Origin: Catellatospora sp. TT07R-123
GTDB lineage: Bacteria > Actinomycetota > Actinomycetes > Mycobacteriales > Micromonosporaceae
DNA length: 64,000 nucleotides
Direction of reading: 5' to 3'
Assembly: GCF_018327705.1 (NCBI RefSeq)
Contig: NZ_BNEM01000002.1
Span: 2,666,001 to 2,730,000, forward strand
Position 1 is the first letter of the stretch. Each line of letters starts with the position of its first letter. Of this stretch, positions 4,232-23,542 are shown one piece after another. The notes below the pieces were generated by a model, which worked only from the letters and a program-made list of their open reading frames with translations, was not told the DNA's origin and did no database searches. The position numbers and the translations under genes are program-made.

Positions 4232-4342
4232 GGATCGCCGGGCCGGGCCGGGTGGGACGTAGTGCCGGTGCGTCTGCGGTTGGGCGTGGCCTGCCGAGCC
4301 AGTAGGGTGTCGGCAGATGAGGATCACCCGGGGAGGGATGGC

Positions 4343-5383
4343 GTGGCAGGCGCGACGACCCCTCCAGGGCACGGTAGGCCGCCGAAACGTCGCCGTTCGC
4401 CGTGGCCGGTCGAAGCTGTGCTGGACAAGCCGGGCGACCTGGCAGATTGGGAGCTTCTGCCGCATTCTGTGGTGAGTCCTCTGCGTTATCCCGGCGCCAA
4501 GCGTCAGCTGGGTCCGGTGATCGCCGAGGTCGTCAAGGCGAATGTGCCGCCGCCGCGGCTTCTATTGGAGCCGTTCTGCGGAGGGGCATCGACGGCGCTG
4601 CGGCTGGTCGGCGCGGGCGTGGCCGAGCATGCCATCCTGGCCGACGCTGACCCGCTGGTGGCGGCGTTCTGGCATACCGCGGCGTTCGATACCCAGTGGT
4701 TGATCTCCGCGATGAGCGAGGAGCGCGAGAAGGCCACGGTCGCGCATTGGGACTGGTGGCGCGCGGCGCAGCCGCGGGGGCGGCGTGATCGTGCGCTGAA
4801 GTGCCTGTTCCTCAATCGCACGACGTTTTCGGGGATCCTGCATGGGCGTGCCGGACCGATCGGTGGACGGGCACAGACGTCTCCCTACAAGATCGATTGT
4901 CGGTTCGGGTTGGAAGGGCTGACGCGTCGGCTCAACCATGTCGGCGCACTGGCTCGCACCGGCCGGATTCTTGACGTTTGGCGGCTGGACTGGTCTGACA
5001 GCATCCGGCGGCTGCTGCGTGAGCATGGATCGCTGCTGTCGTCGGAGGAGATGCTGGTCTACTTCGACCCGCCGTACGTGGACAAGGCCGAGTTCCTGTA
5101 CGAGTGGTCATTTGACACCGGCGGTCATCAGCAGTTCGCTAGAGCGCTGCAGACCGAGTCGCGTTTTCGCTGGTTCTTGTCGTACGACGACAGCCCTCTG
5201 GTGCGTGGCCTGTATCCGACAGGGCAGGGACGTTCGGTGCTGCATGTGTCTCAGCAGTACACGGCGGCTGGCGCCAGGAGCGGCGAAAGCGCCAAGGCGC
5301 GACGCGCCAGTCGCGATGAGCTTTTGGTGACCAACTACCCCACCGTTCCCGAATCCAGCTCGTATCGAGTCCTGGGTCCCTGA
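4343..5383 (+). CDS. DNA adenine N6-methyltransferase, D12/Dam class
   Basis: I chose the GTG at 4343 because GGGGAGGG precedes it at the right distance; the frame is open upstream to 4262. The 346-residue protein has the alpha-class layout: LRYPGAKRQL near residue 46 (SAM-binding FxGxK-type motif), LLLEPFCGGASTALRLV, and the catalytic VYFDPPYVD near residue 239. It would methylate adenine N6 in double-stranded DNA; the target site cannot be read from sequence. Sixty-eight bases downstream lies a HerA gene, then a NurA-type nuclease, so it probably marks self DNA for that machinery or belongs to an epigenetically gated system. It could also be an orphan methyltransferase. Confidence 0.85.
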   Translation: MAGATTPPGHGRPPKRRRSPWPVEAVLDKPGDLADWELLPHSVVSPLRYPGAKRQLGPVIAEVVKANVPPPRLLLEPFCGGASTALRLVGAGVAEHAILADADPLVAAFWHTAAFDTQWLISAMSEEREKATVAHWDWWRAAQPRGRRDRALKCLFLNRTTFSGILHGRAGPIGGRAQTSPYKIDCRFGLEGLTRRLNHVGALARTGRILDVWRLDWSDSIRRLLREHGSLLSSEEMLVYFDPPYVDKAEFLYEWSFDTGGHQQFARALQTESRFRWFLSYDDSPLVRGLYPTGQGRSVLHVSQQYTAAGARSGESAKARRASRDELLVTNYPTVPESSSYRVLGP

Positions 5384-5451
5384 CTTCGTCGCATCCAAGT
5401 GGTAGGAAGGTTGAGCACACTCGATCTCTCTTGCTCACGAAGGGTCGCTCG

Positions 5452-7596: not shown

Positions 7597-9008
7597 TGCC
7601 CTCGCCGAACGAACGCGCGTCGCGTCTCGGGCATGTCTCCACCGTCCAGAACGCGATGATAGAGACAGCGATGACACGGTGGGTCACACCTGCCGTGGAG
7701 AAAGGAACGCCCGAAGCCGTGTCAACCCGGTGTGTCGCGGTTCAGGACCTGCCGGGTCCCACGCGCACACCACCCGCCTACGTGGTGGCCTTCGACGGCT
7801 CCGACCAGGAGATCCAGGCCCGCGCGCAATACCCGTCGATCCGGGTCGGGTTCATCCAGATCACCGGCGTGTTCGTCAACATCAACCAGTTCCTCAACAG
7901 CCGCGTTGACGGCCTGGTCGATCCCCGGCGCCTGATCGCCGCCCGTGACGCCCAGACCATCCAGGCCGCGCTGCCCGGATCGAACGTGGCCATCCAAGGC
8001 TTCAGCGGCGTGGACTCCTGGCGCGCCGAGCTGTACAACATGTTCAGCTCGCAGGGCACCCGCGACTTCTCCGCGGATCTGTTCAGCCTGACCGAAGCGC
8101 TCATGCATCTGTACGGCCGACACGGCGAGCCAGCCAAGACCATCAAACTGGGACGCTGCCCGACCTGCAAAGACACGACGCAGACCGTGCAAGTCAAGCC
8201 CACGGCGTGCACCGCCTGCGCGTCCGCCCTCTACCCCACCGACGTGCTGCGCACCCATGAGGAGTACAACCCTGACGGCAGTAATGACAAGATCCTCACG
8301 CGCACGATGAACGTGGCCGAGCGGCTGCTGATGCTGATCTACATGGGTGGCCTCTCACGGTACAAGCCGCAGGTGGCTGCGAGCGGCATGTTCATCACCG
8401 ACGGGCCTCTGGCATTCCATGGACCCACGGCACCGCTGAAGAGACGCATGGTCGGCTACTGGGGCGAGGTCTGCAGCGCCCAGGAGCAAGCCGGGTGCGC
8501 CCCGCCGCTGTTGGTCGGCGTGGAGAAGAAGGGTGTGTTCGTCGACCACGCCGCAAGCATCGCCGAGTTCATACCTCAGCGGCACGTCATGATGTTGGAT
8601 AACATCTACATCCACGACAAGATCCAGCGGAGCAGCAACAACGATATCTACGGCCACGATGAGTTCTACGGCCGCCGCTTCCTCTACAAGACGAGCACGG
8701 ACCAGATGATCGTCTTGACGGTTCCGCGCGTGCCGGCCGGTCAGCCGTATGAGGCCGCCCAGCCCGACGGCACCAACCCGTGTGAGGACTTTGCCAGCTA
8801 CCCCACGCTGCGCAGTACAGTCGAACAGCTTGATCGGTTGCAGACCAGGCTCTACCCCAACGCCATCATTCCCGTCGCGCTGGCCCACTCGGAGGCATCG
8901 CTGCCCCTCGGGACGGGCCGCAGCGTCTTGACGCTGCTGGCGCAGCATCACCTCGGCCTGGAACAAAACACTAAAGGGCTGCTCGGCCAGCACAGCCCGT
9001 TCCAATGA
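7596..9008 (+). CDS. nurA: NurA-type nuclease with inserted zinc finger, HerA partner
   Basis: The ATG at 7596 shares bases with the HerA stop and has GGGAGG at a proper distance; the frame is open upstream but overlaps HerA and is arginine-rich shadow. The 470-residue protein shows NurA features: an N-terminal acidic strand VVAFDGSDQE (Asp near residue 67), FITDGPLAF (Asp near residue 268), GVEKKG (about residue 307) and a terminal LAHSEASLPLGTG. A CPTCKD...CTAC zinc-finger insert lies near residue 190. NurA is a 5'-3' exonuclease/endonuclease that acts on DNA threaded by HerA. This copy is in a bacterial defence setting and is longer than typical archaeal NurA, partly because of the insert. 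The family call rests on motif pattern and on HerA coupling. Confidence 0.75.
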   Translation: MPSPNERASRLGHVSTVQNAMIETAMTRWVTPAVEKGTPEAVSTRCVAVQDLPGPTRTPPAYVVAFDGSDQEIQARAQYPSIRVGFIQITGVFVNINQFLNSRVDGLVDPRRLIAARDAQTIQAALPGSNVAIQGFSGVDSWRAELYNMFSSQGTRDFSADLFSLTEALMHLYGRHGEPAKTIKLGRCPTCKDTTQTVQVKPTACTACASALYPTDVLRTHEEYNPDGSNDKILTRTMNVAERLLMLIYMGGLSRYKPQVAASGMFITDGPLAFHGPTAPLKRRMVGYWGEVCSAQEQAGCAPPLLVGVEKKGVFVDHAASIAEFIPQRHVMMLDNIYIHDKIQRSSNNDIYGHDEFYGRRFLYKTSTDQMIVLTVPRVPAGQPYEAAQPDGTNPCEDFASYPTLRSTVEQLDRLQTRLYPNAIIPVALAHSEASLPLGTGRSVLTLLAQHHLGLEQNTKGLLGQHSPFQ

Positions 9009-9390: not shown

Positions 9391-10857
9391 ATGCTGCCGC
9401 CAGACGTCGATAGCCCTTTGGATTGGTGGCTTACTCAAGCTGACACACCTGGACGAGTCACGGCGCTTCGGGACACGCCAGCAGGGCCTTCGTGGCTCAA
9501 ATTCGCCTTCTACGGCCGGATGTCGACCAAGGAGTGGCAGCATCGCTTGTCGTCAGGACGTTGGCAGCGCGACTTCGCCGAGGACGTGGTCCGTGGTCAC
9601 GGCGAGATCGTGGCCGAGTACTTCGACCTCGGCCGGCGCGTGAGACCATGGCATCAACGTCCGCAGGCGTCGATGCTGCTGGCAGCGCTGACCGACCCTG
9701 ACCGCCTGTTCAACGCCGTGGTGATCGGCGAGTTCGAACGCGCGTTCTACGGCAACCATTTCAAGCAGATCCTTCCCCTGTTTGCCGAGAACGGCGTCCA
9801 GCTGTGGCTGCCTGAGATCGGCGGACCGGTCGACCCGGCCAGCCACGAACACATGGCAGTGCTGGAGCTGTTGGGGGTTCACTCAAAGAGGGAGATCCAG
9901 CGCGCCCGGTTCCGGGCCAAGGCCGCGATGCGGGCACAGGTTATCGAGCAGGGCCGCCATCAAGGCGGACGGCCACCGTTCGGCTACCGCCTGGTCCGGG
10001 CCGGCCTGCATCCGAATCCCGCTCACGCCAAATGGGGACGGCCGGCGTTTCGTCTCGATCCTGACTCGCGGACAGCGCATCACGTTCAGTGGATCTTCGC
10101 GCAGCGGATCGCCGGTCGCAGCGTAGCCAACATCGCCAAGCTGCTCAACGAGCGCGGTGTGCCGTGCCCGTCGCGTGTAGACCCCGACCGCAACCCCCAT
10201 CGCAGCGGTGAGGTGTGGGTGCAGACCACGGTCAGGTCGATCCTGGAGAATGCGCGCTACACCGGCCGGCAGGTGTGGAACCGGCAGCAGACCGAGCAAG
10301 GGCCGCTGGACGCAGCAGACGACCTGCTGGGCCGATCGGAGAACCGCCGCTGGAATCTGATCCGCGACTGGGCGATCTCGAAGGTCGCCGTTCATCCGCC
10401 GCTGGTCAGCGAGCGGGACTTCGTGATGGCTCAACTCATCCGCAGCGTACCGGCACCCAAGGACGCCACAAGCCGGATCTACGCGCTGGCGGGCCTGGTC
10501 TGGTGCCAGATGTGCGGCCGCAAGTTCGACTCCCACTGGTCTCATGGGAACCCGGCTTACCGATGCCGACACGGCCAGCGCAGCGACAAGCCCGGCGGCA
10601 CCAACGAGCCATGGCTTTACATCCGCGAAGACGACGTCGTGCGGTGGGTCGCTGAGCTGCTGCGGCTGTCGCACGAACCCGAGACGATCGCTGTACGGCT
10701 GCGGGCCGACGGCAGCCGGGTGCTGTGCGGCCCTGATCGAAAACTGAGCCTCGATGCGTCGGTCCGTAGTCCCGCCCGTATTCCGCGTCCACGATCGCCG
10801 AAAGGGCCTGCCACCCCGCCGCGCGCAGGCACCCGCGCCTTCATGGAATTCTACTGA
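9391..10857 (+). CDS. Large serine recombinase (A)
   Basis: ATG at 9391 is preceded by AGGAGG six bases upstream. The 488-residue protein begins with a resolvase catalytic domain (FAFYGRMSTKE, nucleophile Ser45; VVIGEFERAF). A recombinase domain with the helix-rich GGRPPFGYRLV and NARYTGRQVWNRQQT segments follows. A zinc ribbon near residue 370 reads WCQMCGRKFDSHWSHG with later CRHG. This is the layout of large serine integrases and transposon recombinases. It is closely related to the recombinase at 21964, with which it shares the same catalytic and zinc-ribbon phrases. It separates the HerA-NurA module from the pPIWI-RE module and may have carried one of them in. Confidence 0.88.
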   Translation: MLPPDVDSPLDWWLTQADTPGRVTALRDTPAGPSWLKFAFYGRMSTKEWQHRLSSGRWQRDFAEDVVRGHGEIVAEYFDLGRRVRPWHQRPQASMLLAALTDPDRLFNAVVIGEFERAFYGNHFKQILPLFAENGVQLWLPEIGGPVDPASHEHMAVLELLGVHSKREIQRARFRAKAAMRAQVIEQGRHQGGRPPFGYRLVRAGLHPNPAHAKWGRPAFRLDPDSRTAHHVQWIFAQRIAGRSVANIAKLLNERGVPCPSRVDPDRNPHRSGEVWVQTTVRSILENARYTGRQVWNRQQTEQGPLDAADDLLGRSENRRWNLIRDWAISKVAVHPPLVSERDFVMAQLIRSVPAPKDATSRIYALAGLVWCQMCGRKFDSHWSHGNPAYRCRHGQRSDKPGGTNEPWLYIREDDVVRWVAELLRLSHEPETIAVRLRADGSRVLCGPDRKLSLDASVRSPARIPRPRSPKGPATPPRAGTRAFMEFY

Positions 10858-11151: not shown

Positions 11152-11293
11152 GGTTCGCGCGGCGCTGCTCATCGTGCGAGGCTGGCCGAAAGCGACCCTC
11201 GCGAGGGCCGACACGGTATGGCGTTGACCGGAGCCGTCGGTACACCTGTTCGAAATTTTGGTTCAGGTCCGTGAAATCCGGCCGAGTGAAGTT

Positions 11294-11308
11294 TATATTG
11301 ATGAGGTG
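11294..11308 (+). promoter_or_regulatory. Possible leaderless promoter of the XRE gene
   Basis: TATATT at 11294-11299 is followed by six bases and then the in-frame GTG at 11306, the spacing expected if transcription starts at the start codon. No convincing -35 box is seen. Confidence 0.4.
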
Positions 11309-12541
11309 TCGAGACCTGCTGAGCCGTTCGCACCGTCGGTGATGGCGCAGCTCAGGCTGTCCGCTGGACTAAGCCAGTCGCGACTCGCCCTCTTGATCAA
11401 GGTGTCGAAGCGGCAGGTCATCAACTACGAGAAGGGCCGGCATACCCCGACGCCTGCCAAACTCAAGGCGCTGGCGGAAGCACTGTCGACAACCGCGCAA
11501 CAATTGGTCGGCACTCCCCCTGGCCACGAGACGCTTAGCGATCTTCGACGCTTTGCGGGCATGGATCGCGAAGAGGCGGCAACGCGGATGGCTAGGCTTC
11601 TGCCAGGTGCCTGGGCTTGGAGGCTGCAACGTCTTGAGGTTGGAGAAGCCGTCGCAACCTGGCCGTCGTCGGCATCGCCACCCCAGGTGGTCGCGGCTCT
11701 CGCAGAGGTCTACCAAGTGCCGAAAGCTGTCGTGCTCAGCGCCTGGAAGAGAACATCGGCGACACCTTCCGACGCGGGCGAGACTCCTACAGAGGCCGGC
11801 TCGCAGGACGCGCGCAGTAAAGCCGCCCGCGACTGGGATGGGCTGAACGAGAGGCAGCGCGTATACCTGAAGATCTTCTTTCATCAGGATCGAGCCGCAG
11901 AACGTGAGGCGAAAGCGACGCATGCCGCCGGACGAAGGCCCGTTCCTCCATCGGTGTGGCGCAAGCTCCCATTCAGCATCAAGGCAGATCCCGCCTTCAC
12001 CGGCTATACGCCGATACAGCAGGCGCTGCGCACGGACGGCCAGCACGACGCCGGCGCCGGCGCCACGGTGCACGCTTTGGCCCATCGTGGTCTGGTGGAG
12101 GTCAGCGAGGACCAAGTCGAGGTCTTCCCACTGGGATTCGTGCCGCGGGTGCTCGTTGAACTGACACGCGCCGGGCGCGCATGTGCACGGTACGGCCTCG
12201 ACGAACTGCCGGAGCCACGAGACAGAGACGGCTTGCTCTCGGATTGGCTCTGGCAGAACTTGGTCAAGGTCGCAGCGGCTGGCATCAACGGGCTCGCCGA
12301 GGACGGACTTTGGGGGAAAGCGAGATTCTTTCTCGGCACAGGCTATCGCCCGAATGGTTCACCGAGCCGCGGTTATATCGATCTTGTTCCGGTCAAGCAG
12401 GCGACCGAGGCTGGAACCTATGTCCGTGCGTACCGATGGCATCTTACGGACGCCGGCCGAACCCATATTGACCAGCACTTCCCCACATACCGCCGTCTCT
12501 ACCCCGCCGTCCATGACGGCTCGGAGCCCTTGTGGTCCTGA
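11306..12541 (+). CDS. XRE-family regulator with two HTH segments
   Basis: Start is uncertain: GTG at 11306 (leaderless arrangement) or TTG at 11258; neither has a clear ribosome-binding site. With 11306 the protein has 411 residues. The first Cro/CI helix-turn-helix is at about residues 12-65 (LRLSAGLSQSRLALLIKVSK...INYEKGRHTPTPAKLKALA). A second, more degenerate HTH follows at about 72-140. The rest is unrecognised: LNERQRVYLKIFFHQDRAAE, then a winged-helix-like segment with VHALAHRGLVEVSE. The gene ends 66 bases before the pPIWI-RE nuclease gene on the same strand, so it may control that locus. Alternatively the C-terminal part may sense a signal and act directly in defence. Confidence 0.72.
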   Translation: MSRPAEPFAPSVMAQLRLSAGLSQSRLALLIKVSKRQVINYEKGRHTPTPAKLKALAEALSTTAQQLVGTPPGHETLSDLRRFAGMDREEAATRMARLLPGAWAWRLQRLEVGEAVATWPSSASPPQVVAALAEVYQVPKAVVLSAWKRTSATPSDAGETPTEAGSQDARSKAARDWDGLNERQRVYLKIFFHQDRAAEREAKATHAAGRRPVPPSVWRKLPFSIKADPAFTGYTPIQQALRTDGQHDAGAGATVHALAHRGLVEVSEDQVEVFPLGFVPRVLVELTRAGRACARYGLDELPEPRDRDGLLSDWLWQNLVKVAAAGINGLAEDGLWGKARFFLGTGYRPNGSPSRGYIDLVPVKQATEAGTYVRAYRWHLTDAGRTHIDQHFPTYRRLYPAVHDGSEPLWS

Positions 12542-12594: not shown

Positions 12595-12610
12595 TAGTGT
12601 GCCGCCCGTG
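12595..12610 (+). promoter_or_regulatory. Leaderless promoter -10 box of the pPIWI-RE nuclease gene
   Basis: TAGTGT (12595-12600), seven bases, then GTG at 12608. The same phrase (TAnnnT, GCCGCCC, GTG) occurs at 23663-23678. This decides the start at 12608 rather than 12578 and suggests that the pPIWI-RE genes have their own promoter, separate from the XRE gene. Confidence 0.5.
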
Positions 12611-13831
12611 ACTTTCTCCAGCCCTGCTCTAAACGCGACAGCTGCCCGCGTTCAGGTCATGACTGCGGCAGCCCGAGCAGCCCAAGCGGTCACCGATACC
12701 GAACAGCCGCCGGAGAGTAGGCTGCAGACCCTAATGGACGCCCATGCGCGGGTCCTTGCCGTCCGCGGTCCAGGAAATCCGCTCACGTTTTCCGACTTCC
12801 GTGATCTCCTCACGCAGGACCTCTCGTTGCTCCTTCCTTCGCACATCGCGGCCGAGGAATTGCAGGGTGTCTGCCTGATCACCGAAGACGGCCAGTACGA
12901 CGATGACCTCTACGACCTGGAGCAGGAGCAGATGCTCGTGCTGCGGGCCTTGGCCAAGGCAGTGCGGGGTGGGCGGACCCCCTCAGGTGAAAGCCTCGCA
13001 GAGGAAATGGATCAGGAACGGGCCTATACGGCGCTGAAGAAGCGGGGCGAGCAGGCAGTTTACGTGCAGGGCCGCCAGGCGCTCATAGACATGCCGGCCG
13101 GATCTGACAAGGATCTCAGGAAGCTTCGAATCCCGAGTTCGGTCGTCGACTTCTACCAGCCGATCGCGCACGCCGCGTTGTTCGACCGGTGGTGGTTCGC
13201 GTGCCCGGTGTGCCGATGGCCTATGAAGATCACAATTCAGAGGGGCCGAGGAACTAAAACCGGCAGCGCCAGATGCTTCCATCGCCCGCACGCTGCAATG
13301 GGTGCCTCATACATTTTCGGTATTCCTGACGGCGGCCGGCCTCCGTCTTTGATGCCTGCGGCATCCGCTCCTCCTCGTCCATCCGGCGCGGCGGCGGTCT
13401 TGTTCACTGATGTTTCGGGCCGCGTGCCTGAACCGACGCCCGCCGAAGACCACAAGGCGCTCACTCGCGGTGTCTGGCGCTGGACAACGATTCCAGGACT
13501 TGTGGAGGTCGGGCTGCACCGCGCCTTGGAGGCTCGCGGGATCAAGGTGGACCTATGGCCAGCCCTTGACGCGTACGACCTTCATGTCGAGTTGCCGGCG
13601 ATGTCATTCCGCATCGATGTAAAGGACTACAGCAACCCGCTGCTTCTTGGGAAGAAGATTCAGGCTGATGAGGGCGACGCCGGCGGCGCTCAGTGGCTGG
13701 TCGTGCCAGACTTCCGGCCATCCAGCGTCCCGGTACTGACAACGGTCTGCGCGGAGTTCGGCCTACGCGTAGCCACCGCCGGCGCCATGGGACAGATGAT
13801 CTGTGAGAAGGCTGGGATCGCATGGCAGTGA
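12608..13831 (+). CDS. pPIWI-RE-associated nuclease with zinc finger and PD-(D/E)XK-like domain
   Basis: The GTG at 12608 is chosen on leaderless spacing; it gives 407 residues. The N-terminal half is helical and unrecognised. A zinc-finger candidate is at about residues 198-225 (FACPVCRWPM with later Cys/His). The C-terminal domain looks like a restriction-endonuclease fold: PGLVEVGLHRALEARG, then DAYDLHVELP and FRIDVKDYSNPLLLGKKI, giving Glu, Asp and D-V-K in the usual order. A nuclease of this class, a DinG-like helicase and a pPIWI-RE protein are the three components of the system predicted by comparative genomics. The stop overlaps the helicase start by 10 bases. The family call depends partly on this context. 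Confidence 0.72.
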   Translation: MTFSSPALNATAARVQVMTAAARAAQAVTDTEQPPESRLQTLMDAHARVLAVRGPGNPLTFSDFRDLLTQDLSLLLPSHIAAEELQGVCLITEDGQYDDDLYDLEQEQMLVLRALAKAVRGGRTPSGESLAEEMDQERAYTALKKRGEQAVYVQGRQALIDMPAGSDKDLRKLRIPSSVVDFYQPIAHAALFDRWWFACPVCRWPMKITIQRGRGTKTGSARCFHRPHAAMGASYIFGIPDGGRPPSLMPAASAPPRPSGAAAVLFTDVSGRVPEPTPAEDHKALTRGVWRWTTIPGLVEVGLHRALEARGIKVDLWPALDAYDLHVELPAMSFRIDVKDYSNPLLLGKKIQADEGDAGGAQWLVVPDFRPSSVPVLTTVCAEFGLRVATAGAMGQMICEKAGIAWQ

Positions 13832-16800
13832 CAAACAGACTCAGCAAGAATGACGGGGCAATCCTCGCTTCTCTCGCCTTGGCGGCGCACTATTTCCCTG
13901 CTCGCGGCACCGGCGGTGTCTCATTGGCCAGGTTTACCCATGCCGCCTTTCTGATCGGTGGACACTACGACACCTGGGATAGGTGGCGGGAGATGTCGCA
14001 TCAGGAGCGTCAACGCATCGCCGCGGTGCTGGGGGCGGCACCTGAGGAACTCTGCAAGTTGGGCAAACTCAGCAGACGCGCGCGTAGGCTTCTCTCGGCA
14101 GGCCCTGAGGGCCAGAGCAGTCACCCGTTCTCTCTCTACGGCGAGGAGCCCGAGCGGGCGGACGCGGCGGTCCCGCGCGTCGGTGGTGATCTTCTCGGCT
14201 ACGCAGACAGGATCCTAGATCGACTGCGCCGGGACCATCGCCGTCGGCGGCCCCAGGAGATCGCGCGAGAAGGGACATGGCTCACCCGAACGTGGTACTC
14301 CCCAGGGATCGGGCTGGTCCAGGGGAAGGTTGTGATTCCGGACTTCGGCGAGCCGGGCGAGAACGAGGGGTCGTTCAACGTAGAGACCGTGCCCTACATG
14401 GCCGAGGTCGTCATCGACACCGACGCCCTCCTCGACCTTGCAGGAGACATCGACAAGCGTTATCGCCCCGAGGATCGCTATGTGCAGCGCGTCCTCAGCG
14501 ATCTCTTCCGGCAGATGGACACCACCGACACCATCGAGGTAGCGAAGGCTCTGAAGCTGATCGCCGGGCCGCTGGAGATCCTGAACGCACCCACGGGCAC
14601 GGGTAAGAGCGTCTTCGTCAGGGTCGCGGCATCGTGGTTCGCGCTGAACAAGTTGACGATCACGCTCGTGCTACCGACCGTTGAGGCCACGCTTTCCACG
14701 GCGTGGGACATTCAGGAGGATCTGCAACATCTTCGAGTCTTGCGGTCCCTGCCGCAGGAACTCGTCTGCACTCCGCTGATGTCGCCCTACGGCCTGTACG
14801 AGCGGGCACTCAAGGCCGGCGCCCGCGTCGAGGGCTCGTTTCTCGATCAGTCGGCCAAGTCGCGGTGGCGCATCGACCAGCTCGCCTACGGTTGCGCGCT
14901 CGGCCCGCTCACCGAGATCAATGCGCCGTTCCCGCCGGGCAGCGAATCGTGTCGCACCCTCACGCCGTTACCGCCGAAGTCGGGTAACCACGCCTGCCCG
15001 TGGATGACCACGACGTGCGGCAAGTTCGAGCAGCCGCGCAGAGCCATCGGTGCTTCCGTCATCGTCACCAACCATCACAACTTCATGGTCGGACGTTTCC
15101 CGCTGCCCGTCGTGCTGGACGGACGCAAGGTCGACGACGTGTCGATAGCCGAGTTCATCTTCAGGAGGTCTCATGCTGTCCTCATCGACGAGGTGGACCA
15201 GTTCCAGTCGACCGCCCTCGGGATGTGCGCGAGCGAGTTGGTGCTCGACACCCGACGCAACTACGCAGTCCCACTGAAAGAACTCGATGATGACAAGGCC
15301 CGGCTGCCGATCGAGGCGGCCAAAGACCTCTGCCCAACAATCAGCCACGCCCGGTACCTCTCCGAATTCCTATTGGCGGGCATCTGCACCAACGACATCC
15401 ATCTTCGGCAGTACGAGGGCAGCGGCCCGGCTCGCGACCAGCAAGGGCTGAACACCACCGGCTGGCATCTGGCCGGCGGACGGGACCGACGGCTGATCAT
15501 GCTGCTGTTCCCCGACGCAGGCATCACCAACGAACAAGAGGTACCCAACGAACTGTTCGGGCTCCTCAATGCCCTCGGCCCCGCCCATCCGGGCGCAGAC
15601 GACGGCTACACCGCCGATGAATCGATAGAGCTACCGCCGCACCTGCGCGCGGTACGGGCCAGTCTGGAGAAGGTTCTTGCACCACGGGGCGAGGATCTGC
15701 TCGCCCAGGTCAAGCTGGAGCTCTCCGATGCACTACGGGACGCGGTCAAAGACGCCCACCTGCGCAGCGAAGCGATCGAGCTGCTGCTGGTCCGCACGTG
15801 GCTGCGGGAACTCGACGCCGCGCTTGCTCTGCTACGCAACAAAACCGCTCAACTTCGATCCATCGGCCTGCCCTCGGCACGCAAACTCGCCGAACGGCTC
15901 GAATCCAGAGTCGCCGCCAACGTCCTGCCTTACGGGATGCTGGGAGGTGCGATCGTCGGATACCGCGTGACAGGGCTCGACGACCCAGACAAGTCCGCCG
16001 AGCTCACCGCACAGTGCATCTCCGGTGATCCACACACCTACACCGCGCAGCTCGGCAGCATCGTCTCCTTGGTCCTGGCCGGAGTAGAACGGCCCGTAAT
16101 GGGACTGTCGGCGACCGCCTACTTCCCTCAGGCGGTTCGCGAGCACGTGCACGCCGAGGTCAAGTGGTGGATGACCGACGCCGCCCCGGACAGCATCCGC
16201 GCACGACGGCACATGATCACCGATGCGGTCGACCAGCCCATCCGGATCTCCGGCATCCCACAGGCCCACAAACGCCGAGCATTGATCACCCTCGGCGACC
16301 AACTCTACGACAAGCAGATTCATCCAGAACTCGCCCGGATCGCGAAGACCGACCCGGCGCGGGCCCATGCTGCGGTCGTCGTCAACTCCTACGAACACTG
16401 CCGACATATCGCCCTCGGCATCCGCGGATCAAGTCTCTACACCGGGGGACTCTGCGTCGCCGTACCACCTGACAAGGAGCGACGCGACAAACTCCCCCCA
16501 CTGCCGCCCGGCATCGCGGAACTCACACCGGAAGAGTTCGAGACCTTCCCCAGCCGGGGCACCATCCTGGTCGTGCCGATGGCCCGGATCGCCCGCGGCC
16601 TGAATATCGTCATCGGCACCAAGTCGGCCATCACCCCGGTCTACCTGTGCACCCGTCCGCTCGCGCTGCTGACCGACCCGCCAGAGATGTATGCCAGCAT
16701 CAATGCTGCGGGACTGCGGGCATTGCCGGCCGGTCCGTCTGCCGACCCCGTGGCCGCGCTACAGGTAGCCCGGCAGGCTGCCTGGGAGCGACTCGGTGTG

Positions 16801-17100
16801 ATTATGCGATCGGCACCCGGATTCGTCGCGACACGGCCCGAGCTTCAAGAAGAAATCGTCGCGGGCATGATTGTCGATATGATTCAGCTTGCCGGGCGTG
16901 CCCGGCGAGGCGGGACCGACATGACCCTCCACCTGGTCGATTATGCGTTCCACGAGGACTCATGGCAATCCGACCTCGCGAACATCCTGCGCCGAATGTA
17001 CGAGCAGTGGCATCCCGACCAGCGCAAGCAGATGAACGCCATATACCGCGAAGCGCTCGCCGCCTTCCTGGCATACGCGGGCATCGACGCCAACGGCTAG
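13822..17100 (+). CDS. DinG/XPD-like Fe-S superfamily 2 helicase of the pPIWI-RE system
   Basis: The 1092-residue protein starts inside the end of the nuclease gene. Walker A is LNAPTGTGKS near residue 254 and the DEAH-like box is VLIDEVDQFQS near residue 455. Between them lies a cluster of cysteines (GCALG, ESCRTL, HACPW, TTCGKFE) matching the Fe-S domain of XPD/DinG helicases, then VTNHHNFM. Motif VI is QLAGRARRGG near residue 1020. Such helicases unwind DNA or DNA/RNA hybrids 5'-3'. The protein is longer than DinG (about 700), with an N-terminal extension of about 240 residues and a large middle insert. It lies between the nuclease and pPIWI-RE genes in one transcription unit, so it probably remodels the nucleic acid that pPIWI-RE recognises. 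Confidence 0.85.
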   Translation: MAVTNRLSKNDGAILASLALAAHYFPARGTGGVSLARFTHAAFLIGGHYDTWDRWREMSHQERQRIAAVLGAAPEELCKLGKLSRRARRLLSAGPEGQSSHPFSLYGEEPERADAAVPRVGGDLLGYADRILDRLRRDHRRRRPQEIAREGTWLTRTWYSPGIGLVQGKVVIPDFGEPGENEGSFNVETVPYMAEVVIDTDALLDLAGDIDKRYRPEDRYVQRVLSDLFRQMDTTDTIEVAKALKLIAGPLEILNAPTGTGKSVFVRVAASWFALNKLTITLVLPTVEATLSTAWDIQEDLQHLRVLRSLPQELVCTPLMSPYGLYERALKAGARVEGSFLDQSAKSRWRIDQLAYGCALGPLTEINAPFPPGSESCRTLTPLPPKSGNHACPWMTTTCGKFEQPRRAIGASVIVTNHHNFMVGRFPLPVVLDGRKVDDVSIAEFIFRRSHAVLIDEVDQFQSTALGMCASELVLDTRRNYAVPLKELDDDKARLPIEAAKDLCPTISHARYLSEFLLAGICTNDIHLRQYEGSGPARDQQGLNTTGWHLAGGRDRRLIMLLFPDAGITNEQEVPNELFGLLNALGPAHPGADDGYTADESIELPPHLRAVRASLEKVLAPRGEDLLAQVKLELSDALRDAVKDAHLRSEAIELLLVRTWLRELDAALALLRNKTAQLRSIGLPSARKLAERLESRVAANVLPYGMLGGAIVGYRVTGLDDPDKSAELTAQCISGDPHTYTAQLGSIVSLVLAGVERPVMGLSATAYFPQAVREHVHAEVKWWMTDAAPDSIRARRHMITDAVDQPIRISGIPQAHKRRALITLGDQLYDKQIHPELARIAKTDPARAHAAVVVNSYEHCRHIALGIRGSSLYTGGLCVAVPPDKERRDKLPPLPPGIAELTPEEFETFPSRGTILVVPMARIARGLNIVIGTKSAITPVYLCTRPLALLTDPPEMYASINAAGLRALPAGPSADPVAALQVARQAAWERLGVIMRSAPGFVATRPELQEEIVAGMIVDMIQLAGRARRGGTDMTLHLVDYAFHEDSWQSDLANILRRMYEQWHPDQRKQMNAIYREALAAFLAYAGIDANG

Positions 17101-17148
17101 CAGGCAACGGGCGTGTCCAATCATCGAGAGTAGGAGCAGCACAAGGGC

Positions 17149-19887
17149 ATGGCTGAGCAAAAGAACCGCCGACGGCTGGACGTGCTGGGCTACCGGTGCA
17201 CCCCAGAACTACTCGGCGACTCTACGGTCTATCTCCGGCAGTTCCCCGACGCAGTGAAGTCGCTGTGGACGCTGCTCGAACGCCGCTACAGGGACCGTAT
17301 GGGCAGAGAAGAGGTCCAGGCGCCGTACACCATCGCCACCACGGCTCTTCGATGTCTGACCGGCGGTTACGCGTTCTTCGACCCGGAGAGGCTGTTCCTG
17401 GTTTCCGGAAGATCGATCGACGACGACACGCTCTGCGACGCGTTCACCTTGATGCACGGCCTCGCCGCAGGATTGGAGATCGACGATATCCACCTCGGTA
17501 GCCCGGTGGCGCTAGCTGAGCGCATCGCCGGCACCCCGGAGGAGCCCCGCAGGCTCGCCGACTACCTCACCAGAACACCCCAGGGCCAGTCCAACGCCGA
17601 GCCGTGGGTATACCGATCTGCGACGTGGGATTTCGCCCGGCAGCTCACGCAGCGCTCGTGGAACGTCGACGGCAAGGAGATCAGTCTGCGGCCGGACAAT
17701 GTCGGCGGCTTCGTGGCCTGGGACCATCCGTGGGCGAACAAATCAGGCACCGCGTTCGCCATTGCGCGAGGTCGCATCGCCATGAAGACCATGCCCAACC
17801 TCGCTGACCCGGTGTTCCTGCTCTCCGCATCGAGCACACGAGTGAAGAGCGGCATGTTCTTCGCACGCACCGTGCTCGCCGAGACAGACGCCAAGGGGCC
17901 GGTCATCGAAGTCGAGATGGTCGGTCGGTCGCACATCAGAAACATCAGCAGAATGGCTTTGCAGGTTCTGGGCCGGCTGAAGATGGACAACTCGGTCCTC
18001 CACCAGATCCAGGCGCAAGTCGACCGCGAAGTCGCGCAAGCAGAAGAGGCAAAGGCGCGCGGCGTGAAGTGGTATCCACCCGCTGGCGACCTCGGTCCCA
18101 TCCGGCCGATCCACAGCAAGAACTACAAGTTCCCGGTCGGCCGGGGCGTCGGCATGCACTTCCTGCGTGAACTGGACAAGCACGTGCGGTCCGTCTTCGG
18201 TGATGTCGCACGAAGCCCTCAGATCTTCTTCGACACGCAGGGCTTCAAGCGCGTCGAACGCAGGGACGGGTTGTATGCGGATCCTCAGGACGTCACAAGA
18301 TCACTGACTTCCATGGGGTACGAACGCCTGACGCTGGCGTGCCTTTGGTATCGAGATGAGAACCGGATCCGGATGTTGAACGGCTTGGCCGAAGCATACG
18401 GGCTCGACGCCTCAACGCTCGACCCTGCCGAAGGCGAGCCGGTGACGCTCGTGGAAGGCGCCGTCAGTGCCACCTTCCATCGGGTCCCCGGTGTGCTGGA
18501 GCACGGACCGGAGTCCGGCAAACTCGACGACCTGCGAAGGATCGCTACCCTGCGACCCAGCCCCGGCACGCTCGTTGGAGTTTGGGCGGAAACCGACTAC
18601 GACGGCAATGAAGATGAGGTCGACGAGTCAGCGGAGCTCGCCGAGACCCAGAATCCGCCCACGCCCAGGGAAGACAGGCCGCGCAGGCCGGATGACGCCC
18701 ATGACGCCAAGCACCGCACTCGACGCAGCCTCAGCCAGCTCAGCGTCGTATCGCAGTTCATCAAGGACTTCAAACCGGGCAAGAAGCCCGGAGACCACCC
18801 TGTGCAGCTCGCCCAGCTTGACCTCAACCGCAGCCTCGGCCTGATCGATAGACGCGTCGACAACGTCATGATCGATCACGTCGGCAGTTTCGGGCCACAG
18901 GAGGTGGCGCACTGCGGCATCCATGTGCGGCGCCAGAGTAAACGGCCCGGTGAGCGTTCAGCCAAGATCTGCATCACCGCTGTCGTGCTCAAGCCACCGG
19001 CATCCGAGGGCCTTGCATGGACCCTGCACGGCTGGAGCTACACAGACCGCCGCTGGCGGCCATACCACCTGGCCCAGACCGCCTACCACAGCAAGGACTA
19101 CCCGTCCGGCAAACTCGCGATGCACGATGACGACAATGCCGGGCGCAAGCAGGTCGCCGTGGTCATCGATCAGGCACTATCGGAGTTGCACCACTATCTC
19201 GGCGGCACTCCATACACGGTCACGGTCGATGGCTTGGCCACCCGGCGACTGTGGGAAGGCCTGCACAACAAGAAGCAAGGCCAGGTCGGCAAGCCGGGAA
19301 CCACCTGGCTGCCCGGCCACACCCTTCCCCTGTCCGAGCGTCCGCTGGCCGTCATCAGGCTCAACAAGGACGACGACGAGGTGATCAGGCCGATCAGCCA
19401 CACCACGCTGAACTCCGAGGACGAGATTCTCAGGGAGGGTGGCACCACTACGCTGCTGTACCGTCTCGAGCCCGACTTCGGTGACCCGACCTGGCTACTT
19501 TCCACCGTGCCGGTGCAGCATGACGGCAGCGGTGCGGGCCGGCTCGGCGCTGACAAGACGCGGTGGACCGCCAGCTACGGCTCCAACGTCGAAGGCGAGT
19601 TGGCAAAAAACGAGATGCGCGCCAACTGGTACACGATGAACGCCACGGAGATCTTCGTGATCCCACTTCGAGAAGGCGTCGACTCCCGGGCACTCGCCGC
19701 AATGACTGCCCGGCTGTGCCATCAGTCCTTGGCCTGGACCAGCCGTACCCGCTACTCGGTTCAACTCCACGCGGCACAGCAGATGGATCTTGACCATCCG
19801 CAGTACCGGCGGTCGGCCGCCACCCAGGACCCAGAAGCAGCACCGGTGGGCGAGGCGCAGCTCGACGACCAGCCCGACGGAGAATAG
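17149..19887 (+). CDS. pPIWI-RE protein (prokaryotic PIWI family, RNase H-fold with R/E signature)
   Basis: This 912-residue protein starts at ATG 17149, 48 bases after the helicase stop, with GGAG and AAGGG upstream. The N-terminal about 400 residues match the pattern of the DUF3962 region. A charged linker rich in Asp/Pro/Arg lies at about residues 485-530. The C-terminal about 380 residues (from RRSLSQLSVVSQFIKDF) match the DUF3893 RNase H-like region, including GIHVRRQSKR, VDGLATRRLWEG and the terminal NWYTMNATEIFVIPL with later ARLCHQSLAWTSRTRYSVQLH. The family is named for invariant Arg and Glu residues that replace the usual PIWI DDE site. It is predicted to bind nucleic-acid guides or R-loops in defence against invading DNA. 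The assignment is firm mainly because the helicase and nuclease partners are adjacent. Confidence 0.78.
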   Translation: MAEQKNRRRLDVLGYRCTPELLGDSTVYLRQFPDAVKSLWTLLERRYRDRMGREEVQAPYTIATTALRCLTGGYAFFDPERLFLVSGRSIDDDTLCDAFTLMHGLAAGLEIDDIHLGSPVALAERIAGTPEEPRRLADYLTRTPQGQSNAEPWVYRSATWDFARQLTQRSWNVDGKEISLRPDNVGGFVAWDHPWANKSGTAFAIARGRIAMKTMPNLADPVFLLSASSTRVKSGMFFARTVLAETDAKGPVIEVEMVGRSHIRNISRMALQVLGRLKMDNSVLHQIQAQVDREVAQAEEAKARGVKWYPPAGDLGPIRPIHSKNYKFPVGRGVGMHFLRELDKHVRSVFGDVARSPQIFFDTQGFKRVERRDGLYADPQDVTRSLTSMGYERLTLACLWYRDENRIRMLNGLAEAYGLDASTLDPAEGEPVTLVEGAVSATFHRVPGVLEHGPESGKLDDLRRIATLRPSPGTLVGVWAETDYDGNEDEVDESAELAETQNPPTPREDRPRRPDDAHDAKHRTRRSLSQLSVVSQFIKDFKPGKKPGDHPVQLAQLDLNRSLGLIDRRVDNVMIDHVGSFGPQEVAHCGIHVRRQSKRPGERSAKICITAVVLKPPASEGLAWTLHGWSYTDRRWRPYHLAQTAYHSKDYPSGKLAMHDDDNAGRKQVAVVIDQALSELHHYLGGTPYTVTVDGLATRRLWEGLHNKKQGQVGKPGTTWLPGHTLPLSERPLAVIRLNKDDDEVIRPISHTTLNSEDEILREGGTTTLLYRLEPDFGDPTWLLSTVPVQHDGSGAGRLGADKTRWTASYGSNVEGELAKNEMRANWYTMNATEIFVIPLREGVDSRALAAMTARLCHQSLAWTSRTRYSVQLHAAQQMDLDHPQYRRSAATQDPEAAPVGEAQLDDQPDGE

Positions 19888-19894
19888 CTTTAAC

Positions 19895-19937
19895 GGCACG
19901 GCTTGTCCTCACCGTGAGGCGTCGGACAAGCCGTGCC
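19895..19937 (+). terminator. Hairpin terminator after the pPIWI-RE operon
   Basis: GGCACGGCTTGTCC (19895-19908) pairs perfectly with GGACAAGCCGTGCC (19924-19937) around a 15-base loop, eight bases after the pPIWI-RE stop. There is no T-run, as is usual for actinobacterial terminators. Confidence 0.7.
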
Positions 19938-20655
19938 ATCGGAGCCCTTCATACGCCCCGACTCAGGCCCAATTTCCATTAACATCGACGTATGATCCGG
20001 CCTTGTCCAGAAACGGTCACATACGGAGCCAATCGGCTCTACGGTGAGGCAGCGGGCACCGCTAGTCAGGGCGAGGTACATCGCGACAGAGTCGACGAAC
20101 GAAGCAGCTGCGAGCGCAGAGATCATGTCGTCCAGCACCCAGACCTGCTACCTTTGGCGCGACTGATCAACTGTGCAGTAGATGCCTGCAAACCGGCTCC
20201 AGACCACGAGCACGGCGCACCGCACTCGATCAGCCCCGGGGCAGACACCTATCCTGATCCTGAACCTTGTCGTGCGGATCGCACCTCGCCCGCACGAGGC
20301 GACCACCACCTGGTTTTGTTCCCTACGGCGCCAAATGTCGCCAAGTTTGAGCGCCAGCGAGGACCTAGCGGGTCTCGATGTTCACGAGTCTCGGCGTCAC
20401 CACAGCTGCCAGCTGGGTCGCCCGCCGATCCGCTCACGTACGGTGACGAATGCGCGGCGAGGCCCGCGCGGATGGCGGCAAATCCTGCGCACGTGATTAA
20501 CGTGTCCAGTCGTTGACCGGGACGCGCGCAGCAACAGCAACCTACTTCGTAGGCCGAGTCATCCAGCCAATCACGGGAGACTGTCGACACCGGTCGAAGT
20601 GACCGTTGGGTGTGGCTCTTGACCGAGACCAAGAGGGGGTGTGTAGTGTGTACCC
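19938..20655. other. Non-coding stretch with promoter of the following gene
   Basis: Open frames on both strands lack ribosome-binding sites and family patterns, so no gene is called. Near the right end TTGACC (20619-20624), 19 bases, and TAGTGT (20644-20649) form a promoter; the ATG at 20656 lies six bases further, so the transcript is probably leaderless. Confidence 0.45.
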
Positions 20656-21507
20656 ATGACACGCGTTGACTTTCGGTACCTTGCGGACCTCCTCACCCCG
20701 CGCCACGCTGCGATAGTCGACGACCCCGCCGAACGGAACCGCCTTGCCGGCCTGGTCGACACCGACACATCCGAGTACATCGCCGGCTTCATCTCGCAGG
20801 CCGGCCGAGTGCTCGGTGAAGCAGTAAGGTCGGGCGAGATCGTCCTATACGAGAGCGACATCACGGTGGACGCTGAAGGTGACTGGGTGCCCGGAGCCCC
20901 GTCCCGGATGTGGATGGTGCCAGCGGGAACTCGGCGAGAGGACGTTTACGACGACACCGCTCGCCTCTTCCTGGCCCAAAGCTTGCGCAACGGGGCCGCC
21001 AGTCAGTTCTGTGGATGGCAGGACCGGGTGGTCGCAATCGTGCCCGAGGAAGTCGGCCCCAAGGAGTCGAAGATCATCCGTACCCTGGCCGGCGGGGATA
21101 TCGAGGTCGTGCACACGTACAACGTTCTTGATGCGTACGGCACCTTCGCCCGATGGGTGACCGACCTTGCCCTGGAGTATGGAAGCGGTGACGAGGCAAT
21201 TGCTTCCGACACACCCCAGCCGCCCGGCATGGCGCGATCGGTCGTGAGCGCATGGCTGATGCGCGAGGCAGGCGAGGCACAGCTCCAGCAAGCCCGCTTC
21301 TCCCTGAAGTTCGGCTTAGCGGGGTACTCGCGGGTGCCGAGTGAGGAACTGCCGATCGCCGAACTCGCACGTTCCCTCTACACCGACCGCGCGAACTTGA
21401 CGAAGGTCATTAAGGACGCCGAAAAAGATGCCAGGATAACCGGGATCCTCGACGCGATCACGTCCGGGGACACCGACCGGATCATGACGACTCTTCGCAA
21501 CGGGTAG
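20656..21507 (+). CDS. Unrecognised protein with possible C-terminal HTH
   Basis: The ATG at 20656 follows a -10 box by six bases, consistent with leaderless expression. The 283-residue product starts MTRVDFRYLADLLTPRHAAI, is rich in acidic residues, and has no signal peptide or membrane segment. Residues about 240-262 (AELARSLYTDRANLTKVIKDAEKD) resemble a helix-turn-helix with a recognition helix. No family is recognised. It is monocistronic and lies between the pPIWI-RE operon and recombinase B. It may be an excision or transfer regulator of the mobile element, an island-encoded regulator, or an uncharacterised defence component. Confidence 0.75.
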   Translation: MTRVDFRYLADLLTPRHAAIVDDPAERNRLAGLVDTDTSEYIAGFISQAGRVLGEAVRSGEIVLYESDITVDAEGDWVPGAPSRMWMVPAGTRREDVYDDTARLFLAQSLRNGAASQFCGWQDRVVAIVPEEVGPKESKIIRTLAGGDIEVVHTYNVLDAYGTFARWVTDLALEYGSGDEAIASDTPQPPGMARSVVSAWLMREAGEAQLQQARFSLKFGLAGYSRVPSEELPIAELARSLYTDRANLTKVIKDAEKDARITGILDAITSGDTDRIMTTLRNG

Positions 21508-21963: not shown

Positions 21964-23376
21964 TTGGAGTCGGAAACTGCAGGCGACCGTGGTGATGCAG
22001 ACCTGGCCTGGGCGTTGCGCCGGCGCAGGAAGCCGCGGGTCATCATCGAGCCGGTCATTCCAGGGCTGCGCTTTGCGTTCTACGGCCGTATGTCCACCCA
22101 TCGGCAGGACCGCCGAACGTCGCGCGGGTGGCAGCGATACAGCGCCGATGCGCTCATCGAAGGGCGCGGACGAATCGTCGAGGAGTACTTCGACGTTAAC
22201 GTGTCGCGCTTGGTCGATTGGCCGCTGCGGCCTGAGGCCGCGCGACTGCTCGCCGATCTGGTCGACCCCGGCCGCGGCTTCGATGCGATAGTGGTCGGCG
22301 AGTACGCACGCGCGTTCAGTCGCCGACAAATTCGCGAGGTCGAACCTTACCTGCGCCAGGCCGGGGTTGAGCTGTGGCTGGCGGAGCTTGAAGGACCGGT
22401 CGACTTCGACGACATCGAGCATCGGCGGATTCTTGACGAGTTGGGCAGGCACTCTGCCCGGGAGTCCCAGCAGGCGCGTTACCGCACCCTTACCGCGATG
22501 GCGCAGATCATTCGCGATGAAGGGCGGTACATGGGGGGCCGCGTTCCCTATGGGTACCAGCTCGTCGACGCAGGTCTGCATCCTGACCGCGAGGATGCGC
22601 GGTGGGGTCGCCGTTTGCAGCGGCTTGGGCCGGATCCGAACACGGCACGACATGTTCAGTGGATATTCGATCGGCGCTTGTCCGGTGCCTCCACGAGGCA
22701 AATCACCGAGGAGCTCACCTGCCGTCAGGTTCCTACGCCCTCGGATGTAGATCCACGCAGCAGTCGGCGGCGAGCCTATGGCGAGTGGTCGGAGCAGACT
22801 GTCGTGAGGATTCTGCGCAATCCTCGCTACACAGGCCGGGCCGTGTGGGGACAGCAGCGGACTGAGCACGAGGTGACCCTGTCGGAGAATCGCGTCTTGT
22901 CGGACCGGGAGGTCCGTCGGCGTGTACCGGCGTCGGAGTGGACCTTCTCTGAGAGGGTCGCCCATCCACCGCTGGTCACCATGGAGGTCTTCGTCGCAGT
23001 TCAGGATGTGATCGCGGCACCGAGGCGCGATACCGAAAAGGTAGGCAGCACGCCACGGCTGTATCGGCTGGTCGGCCACATGTACTGCGAGTTCTGCGAA
23101 CGTTCTATGGAGTCGCACTGGTCGCACGGCAAGCCTGCATACCGGTGCAAACATGGCGTCAGGAACCGCAACGCTCCTGTCCAGGAGCGCGTCAAGCAGT
23201 TCTATGTTCGCGAGGACGAGGTCTTGCGGAGGCTGGCCTGGTGCAACAGTCCCGACTTCCATGGACGTTCGCAGACCCAGATCATCGACGCGTTGCGTAG
23301 CTTGGACGCGGTGATCGTCTACGGTCCGACGAACATTGTTCTCGAATACGGGGAGGATGTCGTGACGATTCCCTGA
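21964..23376 (+). CDS. Large serine recombinase (B), tRNA-proximal
   Basis: The start is TTG at 21964, preceded by GGGAGG with five intervening bases. The 470-residue protein has the resolvase catalytic domain (LRFAFYGRMSTHRQ, nucleophile Ser44; VVGEYARAFSRRQ), a recombinase domain (GGRVPYGYQLV; NPRYTGRAVWGQQRT) and a zinc ribbon near residue 375 (YCEFCERSMESHWSHG, CKHG). It shares these segments with recombinase A at 9391 in nearly the same words, so the two are paralogous or from related elements. It ends 82 bases from the 3' end of a tRNA-Leu gene, which makes it the best candidate for the enzyme that inserted the rightmost part of the island. Serine integrases use tRNA genes less often than tyrosine integrases do. 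Confidence 0.88.
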   Translation: MESETAGDRGDADLAWALRRRRKPRVIIEPVIPGLRFAFYGRMSTHRQDRRTSRGWQRYSADALIEGRGRIVEEYFDVNVSRLVDWPLRPEAARLLADLVDPGRGFDAIVVGEYARAFSRRQIREVEPYLRQAGVELWLAELEGPVDFDDIEHRRILDELGRHSARESQQARYRTLTAMAQIIRDEGRYMGGRVPYGYQLVDAGLHPDREDARWGRRLQRLGPDPNTARHVQWIFDRRLSGASTRQITEELTCRQVPTPSDVDPRSSRRRAYGEWSEQTVVRILRNPRYTGRAVWGQQRTEHEVTLSENRVLSDREVRRRVPASEWTFSERVAHPPLVTMEVFVAVQDVIAAPRRDTEKVGSTPRLYRLVGHMYCEFCERSMESHWSHGKPAYRCKHGVRNRNAPVQERVKQFYVREDEVLRRLAWCNSPDFHGRSQTQIIDALRSLDAVIVYGPTNIVLEYGEDVVTIP

Positions 23377-23422: not shown

Positions 23423-23448
23423 CCACGGAACGAGTCAGCGTTCCGTGG
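23423..23448. terminator. Hairpin between recombinase B and tRNA-Leu
   Basis: CCACGGAACG (23423-23432) pairs perfectly with CGTTCCGTGG (23439-23448) around AGTCAG. It lies between the plus-strand recombinase and the 3' end of the minus-strand tRNA gene and could end transcription from both sides. Confidence 0.65.
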
Positions 23449-23458
23449 GGGATTTATG

Positions 23459-23542
23459 TGTCCGAGGGGGGACTTGAACCCCCACGCCCTATACGGGCAC
23501 TAGCACCTCAAGCTAGCGCGTCTGCCATTCCGCCACCCGGAC
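23459..23542 (-). tRNA. tRNA-Leu (anticodon GAG)
   Basis: On the minus strand the sequence folds as a class II tRNA. The acceptor stem GTCCGGG/CTCGGAC includes one G-T pair. The anticodon stem CTAGC/GCTAG has loop TTGAGGT with anticodon GAG. A long variable arm and the T-stem GGGGG/CCCCC with loop TTCAAGT follow. The CCA end is not encoded in full. It marks the likely junction of the accessory island with the core chromosome. Confidence 0.93.

Follow-up and report, generated by a model that had tools for sequence, protein, structure and literature searches.

How does a host escape cutting by the nuclease of an operon that carries no protective methylase, and which protein of such an operon does the cutting? 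We take up these questions for a pPIWI-RE locus of Catellatospora sp. TT07R-123, a soil actinobacterium, using a window of 64,000 nucleotides (contig NZ_BNEM01000002.1, forward-strand positions 2,666,001 to 2,730,000; positions below are those of this window unless a locus label such as L090 precedes them). The triad of a restriction endonuclease (REase), a DinG-like iron-sulphur (Fe-S) helicase and a pPIWI-RE protein is of a known kind, described by Burroughs, Iyer and Aravind (Burroughs 2013), and passages of that paper ask how the host escapes an operon-first pPIWI-RE nuclease that has no methylase. In the window, four adjacent genes on the same strand, with small gaps or overlaps between them, encode a helix-turn-helix (HTH) protein, the REase, the helicase and the pPIWI-RE protein. 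The core triad is the known system; the novelty lies in the additional gene, in the operator-like site before it and in the mapping of the island that carries the unit. In our interpretation the unit is a mobile pPIWI-RE operon that restricts DNA under the direction of a guide and includes a gene for its own controller, a reading to which we assign a probability of roughly 0.6.

The unit comprises the following features:

11258-12541, + strand: fourth gene, encoding a tandem HTH (PF01381) and a C-terminal region read as winged-helix-like; 427 amino acids (aa) from TTG 11258
11287-11299, + strand: TGAAGTTTATATT element, 19 bases upstream of GTG 11306; putative operator
12578 (TTG) or 12608 (GTG) to 13831, + strand: REase gene, 417 aa; PF18154, PADLOC PprRE
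13822-17100, + strand: DinG-like Fe-S helicase gene, 1092 aa; PADLOC PprDinG
17149-19887, + strand: pPIWI-RE gene, 912 aa, with X domain, MID and RNase H-like PIWI; PF13032, PF13111, PprPIWI
19882-19950, + strand: hairpin at the PIWI stop codon, with 27-nucleotide arms; candidate terminator

The triad and its nuclease and helicase motifs

The open reading frame (ORF) coordinates bear out the layout that an earlier note on this DNA had proposed: the REase and helicase genes overlap by 10 bases (13822-13831), and a 48-base gap (17101-17148) separates the helicase and pPIWI-RE genes. The order REase, DinG, pPIWI-RE, with the genes overlapping or close together, is found with the same triad in most of the relatives fetched. 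Profile searches also identify the complete triad that had been claimed. The REase protein matches PF18154 (pPIWI_RE_REase, 4.6e-26) and PADLOC PprRE (1.1e-12), and the helicase matches PADLOC PprDinG (2.2e-91) and no family in Pfam. The 912-aa protein matches PF13032 (RNaseH_pPIWI_RE, 1.7e-65, over the full profile 1-288), PF13111 (pPIWI_RE_X, 8.6e-34) and PprPIWI (4.6e-103), with a sub-threshold match to PF18157 (MID_pPIWI_RE, 1.6e-4, 22.4 bits against a cut-off of 26.6). None of the three proteins matches NCBIfam at E<=0.01, and sequence search found no solved structure for the DinG and PIWI proteins. Three genes was nevertheless an undercount: all three are present, and the fourth gene directly upstream (11258-12541) is conserved in the window's clade.

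Functional residues were located by aligning the window with 33 relatives for the REase (34 rows) and over 33 rows for the helicase. Three cysteine ligands of the REase zinc ribbon (C209, C212 and C233) are present in 34/34 rows, as is R166 in the N-terminal region. The D...(D/E)xK site of the nuclease, which the earlier note had made a condition of its reading, is found by alignment: E310 is conserved in 31/34 rows, D334 in 32/34, and D347 and K349 each in 30/34. In the helicase, cysteines C358, C377, C392 and C399, the Walker A lysine K262, D456/E457 of motif II, and Q1022, G1025, R1026 and R1029 of motif VI are invariant in all 33 rows. Judged from these alignments, the nuclease site and the helicase motifs are intact in the window. 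The long N-terminal region and the middle insert of the helicase, which had been singled out earlier, are both real, but they do not stand as unusual traits: relatives have about the same length, and both features belong to the family description in passages of Burroughs 2013.

The unit could end at the strong hairpin that overlaps the PIWI stop codon, where folding of 19875-19965 gives -40.2 kcal/mol with a z score of -4.4.

A conserved gene for an HTH protein upstream of the triad

A scan of genome contigs returned no loci with a single-protein query and 80 loci with an alignment query, and the fourth gene was sought by hidden Markov model (HMM) search in 115 fetched loci and the window. Counting the window, 115 loci had a PIWI frame; removal of 12 partial frames left 103 and removal of 14 near-copies (>95% identity over the last 350 residues) left 89. 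Five more (L059, L061, L130, L142 and L143), in which the triad was incomplete or upstream DNA was missing, were set aside, which gave 84 non-redundant triads; the 84 include L121, whose DinG is split over frames, and a fusion in L133, described below, stands outside the count. Upstream of the 84 triads we find an HTH gene in 39, a PprPDDEXK-type nuclease gene in 20 and neither in 25. The 39/84 is not a prevalence, because the 80 loci came from patterns of the window's side of the family.

In a FastTree phylogeny with local support values, midpoint-rooted for drawing, the 39 HTH loci share one side of the tree, set apart by a branch whose support is 100 (0/500 shuffles as low). All 39 triad loci of this clade with upstream DNA keep the fourth gene or its C-terminal half. 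They come from Streptomycetaceae, Streptosporangiaceae, Micromonosporaceae, Pseudonocardiaceae, Thermomonosporaceae, Nocardiopsidaceae and Promicromonosporaceae. The same side of the tree also holds L130, a decayed locus with a 278-aa DinG piece, in which no REase and no HTH gene were found. Other flanking gene families occur in at most 7 of the 39 HTH loci, the larger clusters being shadow ORFs on the HTH gene itself.

The loci with an upstream nuclease offer a parallel, as they too have a triad with a fourth gene directly upstream. There, however, the fourth gene encodes a PD-(D/E)XK nuclease (PprPDDEXK; PF12705), whereas that of the window encodes a DNA-binding HTH protein. All 20 upstream nucleases match PADLOC PprPDDEXK and six also match a Cas4 model weakly; we dropped this nuclease as a newly found fourth gene, since PADLOC already has a model for it. 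A 283-aa ORF at 20656-21507, downstream of the triad, was dropped as a fifth conserved gene, since no relative of it was found near other triads.

Homology places the likely start of the fourth protein at GTG 11306 (411 aa), the aligned start column holding M in 30/33 members. The 32 other members of this alignment are 34-55% identical to the window protein, which matches HTH_3 (PF01381) at 6.6e-12. A predicted model (pLDDT, the per-residue confidence score, 84.8; pTM, the global score, 0.47) contains two helical units that resemble HTH domains (about 26-84 and 93-167) and a long helix at 198-223, and we read two further alpha-beta units, with paired strands at 280-302 and 374-396, as winged-helix-like. 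Foldseek returned no match to this model at E<=0.001. Its list holds mostly short HTH-sized stretches (best E 1.1e-2) and includes DdrO, SinR, C.AhdI and C.BclI. Searched against PADLOC, the 33 fourth proteins match mostly HTH-type models, with RmrA first in 33/33, and none of the 18 PADLOC families matched is a Ppr model; in the window protein these matches cover the N-terminal region. The controller (C) proteins of restriction-modification (RM) systems, such as C.AhdI and C.BclI, offer a partial likeness: an HTH_3-type domain, a gene adjoining a nuclease gene and, in sister loci of the window, a palindrome upstream. Unlike the matched C protein chains of 66-77 residues, the fourth protein has about 411-427 aa with an extra half, and the fold match is weak.

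The palindrome TGAAG(A/T)CTTCA lies upstream of the fourth gene in 20/33 aligned members, between positions -25 and -30 relative to the aligned start codon, and in 27/47 HTH loci, equal to 20/39 after redundancy is removed. All 27 copies sit at that site, with no others in the 1,054,398 bases of the 47 HTH loci and none in the 68 loci without an HTH gene (1,329,343 bases). A TGAAGT(T/C)TAT stretch is common to the window and its three nearest relatives (L147, L093 and L117), where it lies some 19 bases ahead of the start codon. As the palindrome precedes the fourth gene and not the REase gene, a single transcription unit beginning at the HTH gene fits the arrangement.

Full-length fourth protein was found in 2/397 genomes of the order, both with a triad, while a third genome gave the C-terminal part only (E<=1e-30, best 4 candidates per genome scored). 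A relative of the fourth gene lies at the same position in L045. The C-terminal part, alone or with other N-termini, also occurs on plasmids of Nocardia, Streptomyces, Deinococcus and cyanobacteria (L173-L178); the six plasmid stretches that were opened hold no gene annotated as pPIWI-RE, and most of their genes are annotated as hypothetical. At L133:8723-11353 (Catenulispora rubra), a single 876-aa open frame encodes almost all of the HTH protein fused to the MID-PIWI half of pPIWI-RE (PF01381, PF18157 and PF13032), and REase and DinG were not found in that 19.6-kb locus.

The pPIWI-RE protein

The 912-aa protein has a family match to PIWI (PF13032), and Argonaute matches to its predicted structure agree. 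The AlphaFold2 model, built from the window protein and 47 relatives, has a mean pLDDT of 85.5 and a pTM of 0.88; pLDDT falls under 50 in the linker (485-507) and in the tail (889-912). Foldseek returned 97 matches in the PDB at E<=0.001, and the 50 matches listed are without exception Argonaute or Piwi proteins. Yeast Argonaute 4f1n (8.7e-14) heads the list, which includes RsAgo 6d8p (2.5e-12), the latter an RNA-guided DNA binder as cited in a passage of PMC10991935, and the model aligns to Argonautes along its length.

Residue counts were taken from an alignment of 89 proteins, or 93 rows after four cyanobacterial proteins were added. The arginine and glutamate conserved in the family, R737 and E834, are each present in 87/89 proteins, including that of the window, and MID residues D519, K521, Q536, D558, R561 and G564 are conserved in 85 to 88 of 89 rows. 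The column of the first catalytic aspartate holds H592 in the window, and aspartate in 0/89 rows and in 0/93 with the cyanobacterial rows. This column was assigned from the alignment, the model strand 587-596 and its G-I-x-V context, with PsPIWI-RE of Pseudomonas stutzeri outside the aligned rows. D694, the likely second aspartate, is found in the window and in 38/39 of its clade. As predicted from model and alignment, then, the PIWI module has an Argonaute fold and the family Arg/Glu pair, without an aspartate in the first catalytic column. The linker, put at about 45 residues in the earlier note, is real, with 36 residues between T482 and D519; this is long but within the family range (0-39 over the 89 proteins). 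The linker and the helicase extension and insert were dropped as signs of novelty, being family-typical or inside the family range.

The earlier note's remark that there had been little direct functional work on this family needs correcting, as PsPIWI-RE was studied at the bench in 2022 (PMC10991935). In the passages of that paper that describe it, PsPIWI-RE is an RNA-guided DNA nuclease and a DNA-guided RNA nuclease that binds guides and cuts when both aspartates are present, and mutation of its conserved Arg and Glu showed them to be dispensable for cleavage. PsPIWI-RE, from strain DSM4166, resembles the window protein in having DinG and nuclease genes adjoining. In contrast to the window protein, with H592 and a retained D694, it has both catalytic aspartates (D525 and D610) and cleaves (PMC10991935). 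Passages of PMC7641849 deal with Piwi-related Argonautes only.

A mobile island at a tRNA gene

The unit is carried by an island of about 37.94 kb inserted at tRNA-Leu(gag). Both ends could be mapped, confirming that the locus lies in a defence island as the earlier note had proposed. The elements that delimit the island, lie within it or border it are:

23458-23473: right copy of the 16-bp repeat GTGTCCGAGGGGGGAC, at the 3' end of tRNA-Leu(gag) (23458-23542, - strand)
L090 5522-5537: left copy of the 16-bp repeat GTGTCCGAGGGGGGAC, left of the window
21964-23376, + strand: serine recombinase and candidate integrase beside the tRNA end; PF07508 4e-20, PF00239 6.2e-7
9391-10857, + strand: second serine recombinase, with the pPIWI-RE unit lying between it and the first; PF07508 9.4e-17
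L090 3832-5547: further serine recombinase; PF07508 4.3e-20, 41% identical to the one at 9391
3182-4111: ShosA-like DprA
4262-5383: D12-type adenine methylase; PADLOC PD-Lambda-5_B
5431-7596: HerA-type ATPase

In 10/10 other genomes of the genus, homology on the right-hand side reaches the 3' end of tRNA-Leu(gag), starting at 23431-23458. In L085 and L082, the sequence that flanks the island on its left (as far as window coordinate -14463) is joined directly to this right-hand homology, and these two genomes thus show the site without this island; the stretches fetched from the other eight show no such empty-site junction. The left repeat lies at the end of the further serine recombinase gene, so that at least two such elements appear to have entered this tRNA-Leu gene. 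The three recombinases at this tRNA 3' end are related to one another. DNA similar to the window's serine recombinases lies near the same tRNA in 4/10 other genus genomes (L080, L083, L084 and L086). Serine integrases at tRNA genes are unusual.

Left of the window, the same island carries the Wadjet type I genes JetA, JetB, JetC and JetD on the minus strand (L090:13363-19959), and it also encodes a helicase matching the PADLOC models PDC-M23B and HamB. The stretch over the Wadjet genes up to window position 258 is shared, at 88%, with an island at the same tRNA in the genus genome L081. A 787-aa ORF at 6645-9008 without a family match overlaps the HerA frame by about 950 bases, and any real gene at this place may start near the HerA end. 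A guide RNA gene in the island was considered and dropped, the tRNA being the sole Rfam match in window positions 1-24000.

PF13032 is distributed patchily, with matches in 0/10 other genus genomes, 5/101 relatives, 27/397 genomes of the order and 6/396 of the phylum (the genome studied here is included in the latter three counts). Triads or their remains are also found on Streptomyces and cyanobacterial plasmids. On one of these, of Streptomyces sp. NBC_00826, an annotated IS3 transposase interrupts the helicase region of the triad (L061:9943-11998). Carriage by phages was dropped after searches of 50,697 phage records and of viral contigs both came back without a match.

In other branches of the family, a gene for a caspase-domain and DEAD-helicase protein lies near the triad in 13/84 loci, 10 of them with SEFIR, all by our own HMMs; two of the caspase genes and two of the SEFIR genes were also checked with Pfam. 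Examples, often with a SEFIR/TIR gene, are L058, L064, L131, L138, L139, L155, L158, L159 and L171, among others.

Proposed mechanism and its alternatives

Passages of Burroughs 2013 propose that pPIWI-RE senses RNA-DNA hybrids and then calls on DinG and REase. The window's unit shares with the three-gene Ppr system of that paper and PADLOC the same proteins, order and tight spacing, the Arg/Glu pair, the zinc-ribbon cysteines and REase fold, and the Fe-S helicase; it differs in having a separate HTH gene directly upstream and in leaving the Pfam Y and Z models unmatched. Since the REase and DinG motifs are intact while the first PIWI catalytic column has an aspartate in 0/89 proteins, the REase is the likely cutter. 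The incomplete PIWI site and the whole REase site lead us to favour a division of labour in which PIWI recognises the target by its guide and the REase cuts, and we hold this with about the same confidence as the reading of the unit as a whole. The PIWI protein would bind a short guide in its MID pocket and, once loaded, would recognise without cutting a DNA target or R-loop of an invading plasmid, conjugative element or phage. It might then bring in DinG for unwinding or translocation and the REase for cleavage. The HTH protein may act like an RM controller that binds the operon's own promoter and restrains nuclease expression, for instance upon transfer of the island to another cell. Its position, fold and palindrome suggest such a controller, as do the recurrent HTH-REase fusions that passages of Burroughs 2013 report from other branches; in Nostoc L179, MerR, PF18156 and PF18154 domains are fused in a single gene. 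The island, plasmid carriage and the family point to a role in defence against phages or plasmids.

Several observations weigh against this interpretation. The full palindrome is absent from the window itself, from its three nearest relatives and from 15 of the other 35 non-redundant HTH loci. PF18156 (Y, REase protein) and PF18155 (Z, helicase) have no match in the window at E<=10, nor in the clade members L147 and L112. As both models match the triad of Nostoc L179, we regard the window's clade as a diverged branch. No guide-source candidate emerged from Rfam in window positions 1-24000. PsPIWI-RE, which also lies beside DinG and nuclease genes, cleaves, and the phenotype associated with its loss in passages of PMC10991935 is sensitivity to ciprofloxacin, with no phage phenotype reported there. 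The fourth protein, moreover, has invariant residues outside its N-terminal HTH, beyond what a plain repressor would need, and 4/39 loci keep the C-terminal half beside the triad but either have no N-terminal HTH half or, as in L118, carry it on an upstream frame of its own.

The last two points bear on the possibility that the fourth protein belongs to the machinery itself rather than regulating it, its tandem HTH and two winged-helix-like units recognising or bridging target DNA and handing it over to PIWI, DinG and REase. The many invariant residues of the C-terminal half favour this, together with the retention of the HTH protein or that half in 39/39 clade triads with upstream DNA and the single L133 frame that joins the HTH protein to a MID-PIWI half. 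Yet the palindrome before its own gene in 20/39 loci speaks for autoregulation, other clades have triads without the protein, and the L133 fusion was seen in one draft genome, where a deletion or an assembly error may have produced it. We consider such a role possible, if on the unlikely side. It is tempting to combine the two functions and to speculate on a separate, four-component class of guided bacterial defence, in which an Argonaute relative that does not cut works with a helicase and a nuclease, all under a dedicated promoter-bound controller that both autoregulates and aids target recognition; we think this rather unlikely.

A role in replication or repair, in which DinG and PIWI would resolve RNA-DNA hybrids, would account for the ciprofloxacin sensitivity of the PsPIWI-RE knockout (PMC10991935). 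The patchy occurrence of PF13032, at 0/10 in the genus and 27/397 in the order, runs counter to it, as do carriage by an island and plasmids and the Wadjet genes nearby, and we regard it as very unlikely. We give hardly any credence to the idea that this is a plain triad of the 2013 type with the HTH gene as a chance neighbour kept by descent. Closely related loci do keep their neighbours together, 45/84 triads have no HTH gene, and the decayed clade member L130 has none either. Yet the 39 loci span seven named families, and 32 aligned members are 34-55% identical to the window protein. Shadow ORFs aside, no other flanking family exceeds 7/39 loci, and both genomes of the 397 with the full-length protein, among the best four candidates scored in each, also have the triad.

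Implications

In the passages of open-licence papers considered here, among them Burroughs 2013 and PMC10991935, we found no description of a separate HTH gene ahead of the triad. A conserved upstream DNA-binding gene with its palindrome offers a concrete and testable answer to the question of host protection raised in passages of Burroughs 2013. The clade, present in many Streptomyces and other actinobacteria, pairs an Argonaute relative that lacks the first catalytic aspartate with a separate nuclease whose site appears intact. If the four-component class speculated on above were true, it would explain how a nuclease operon can move from genome to genome without a protective methylase.

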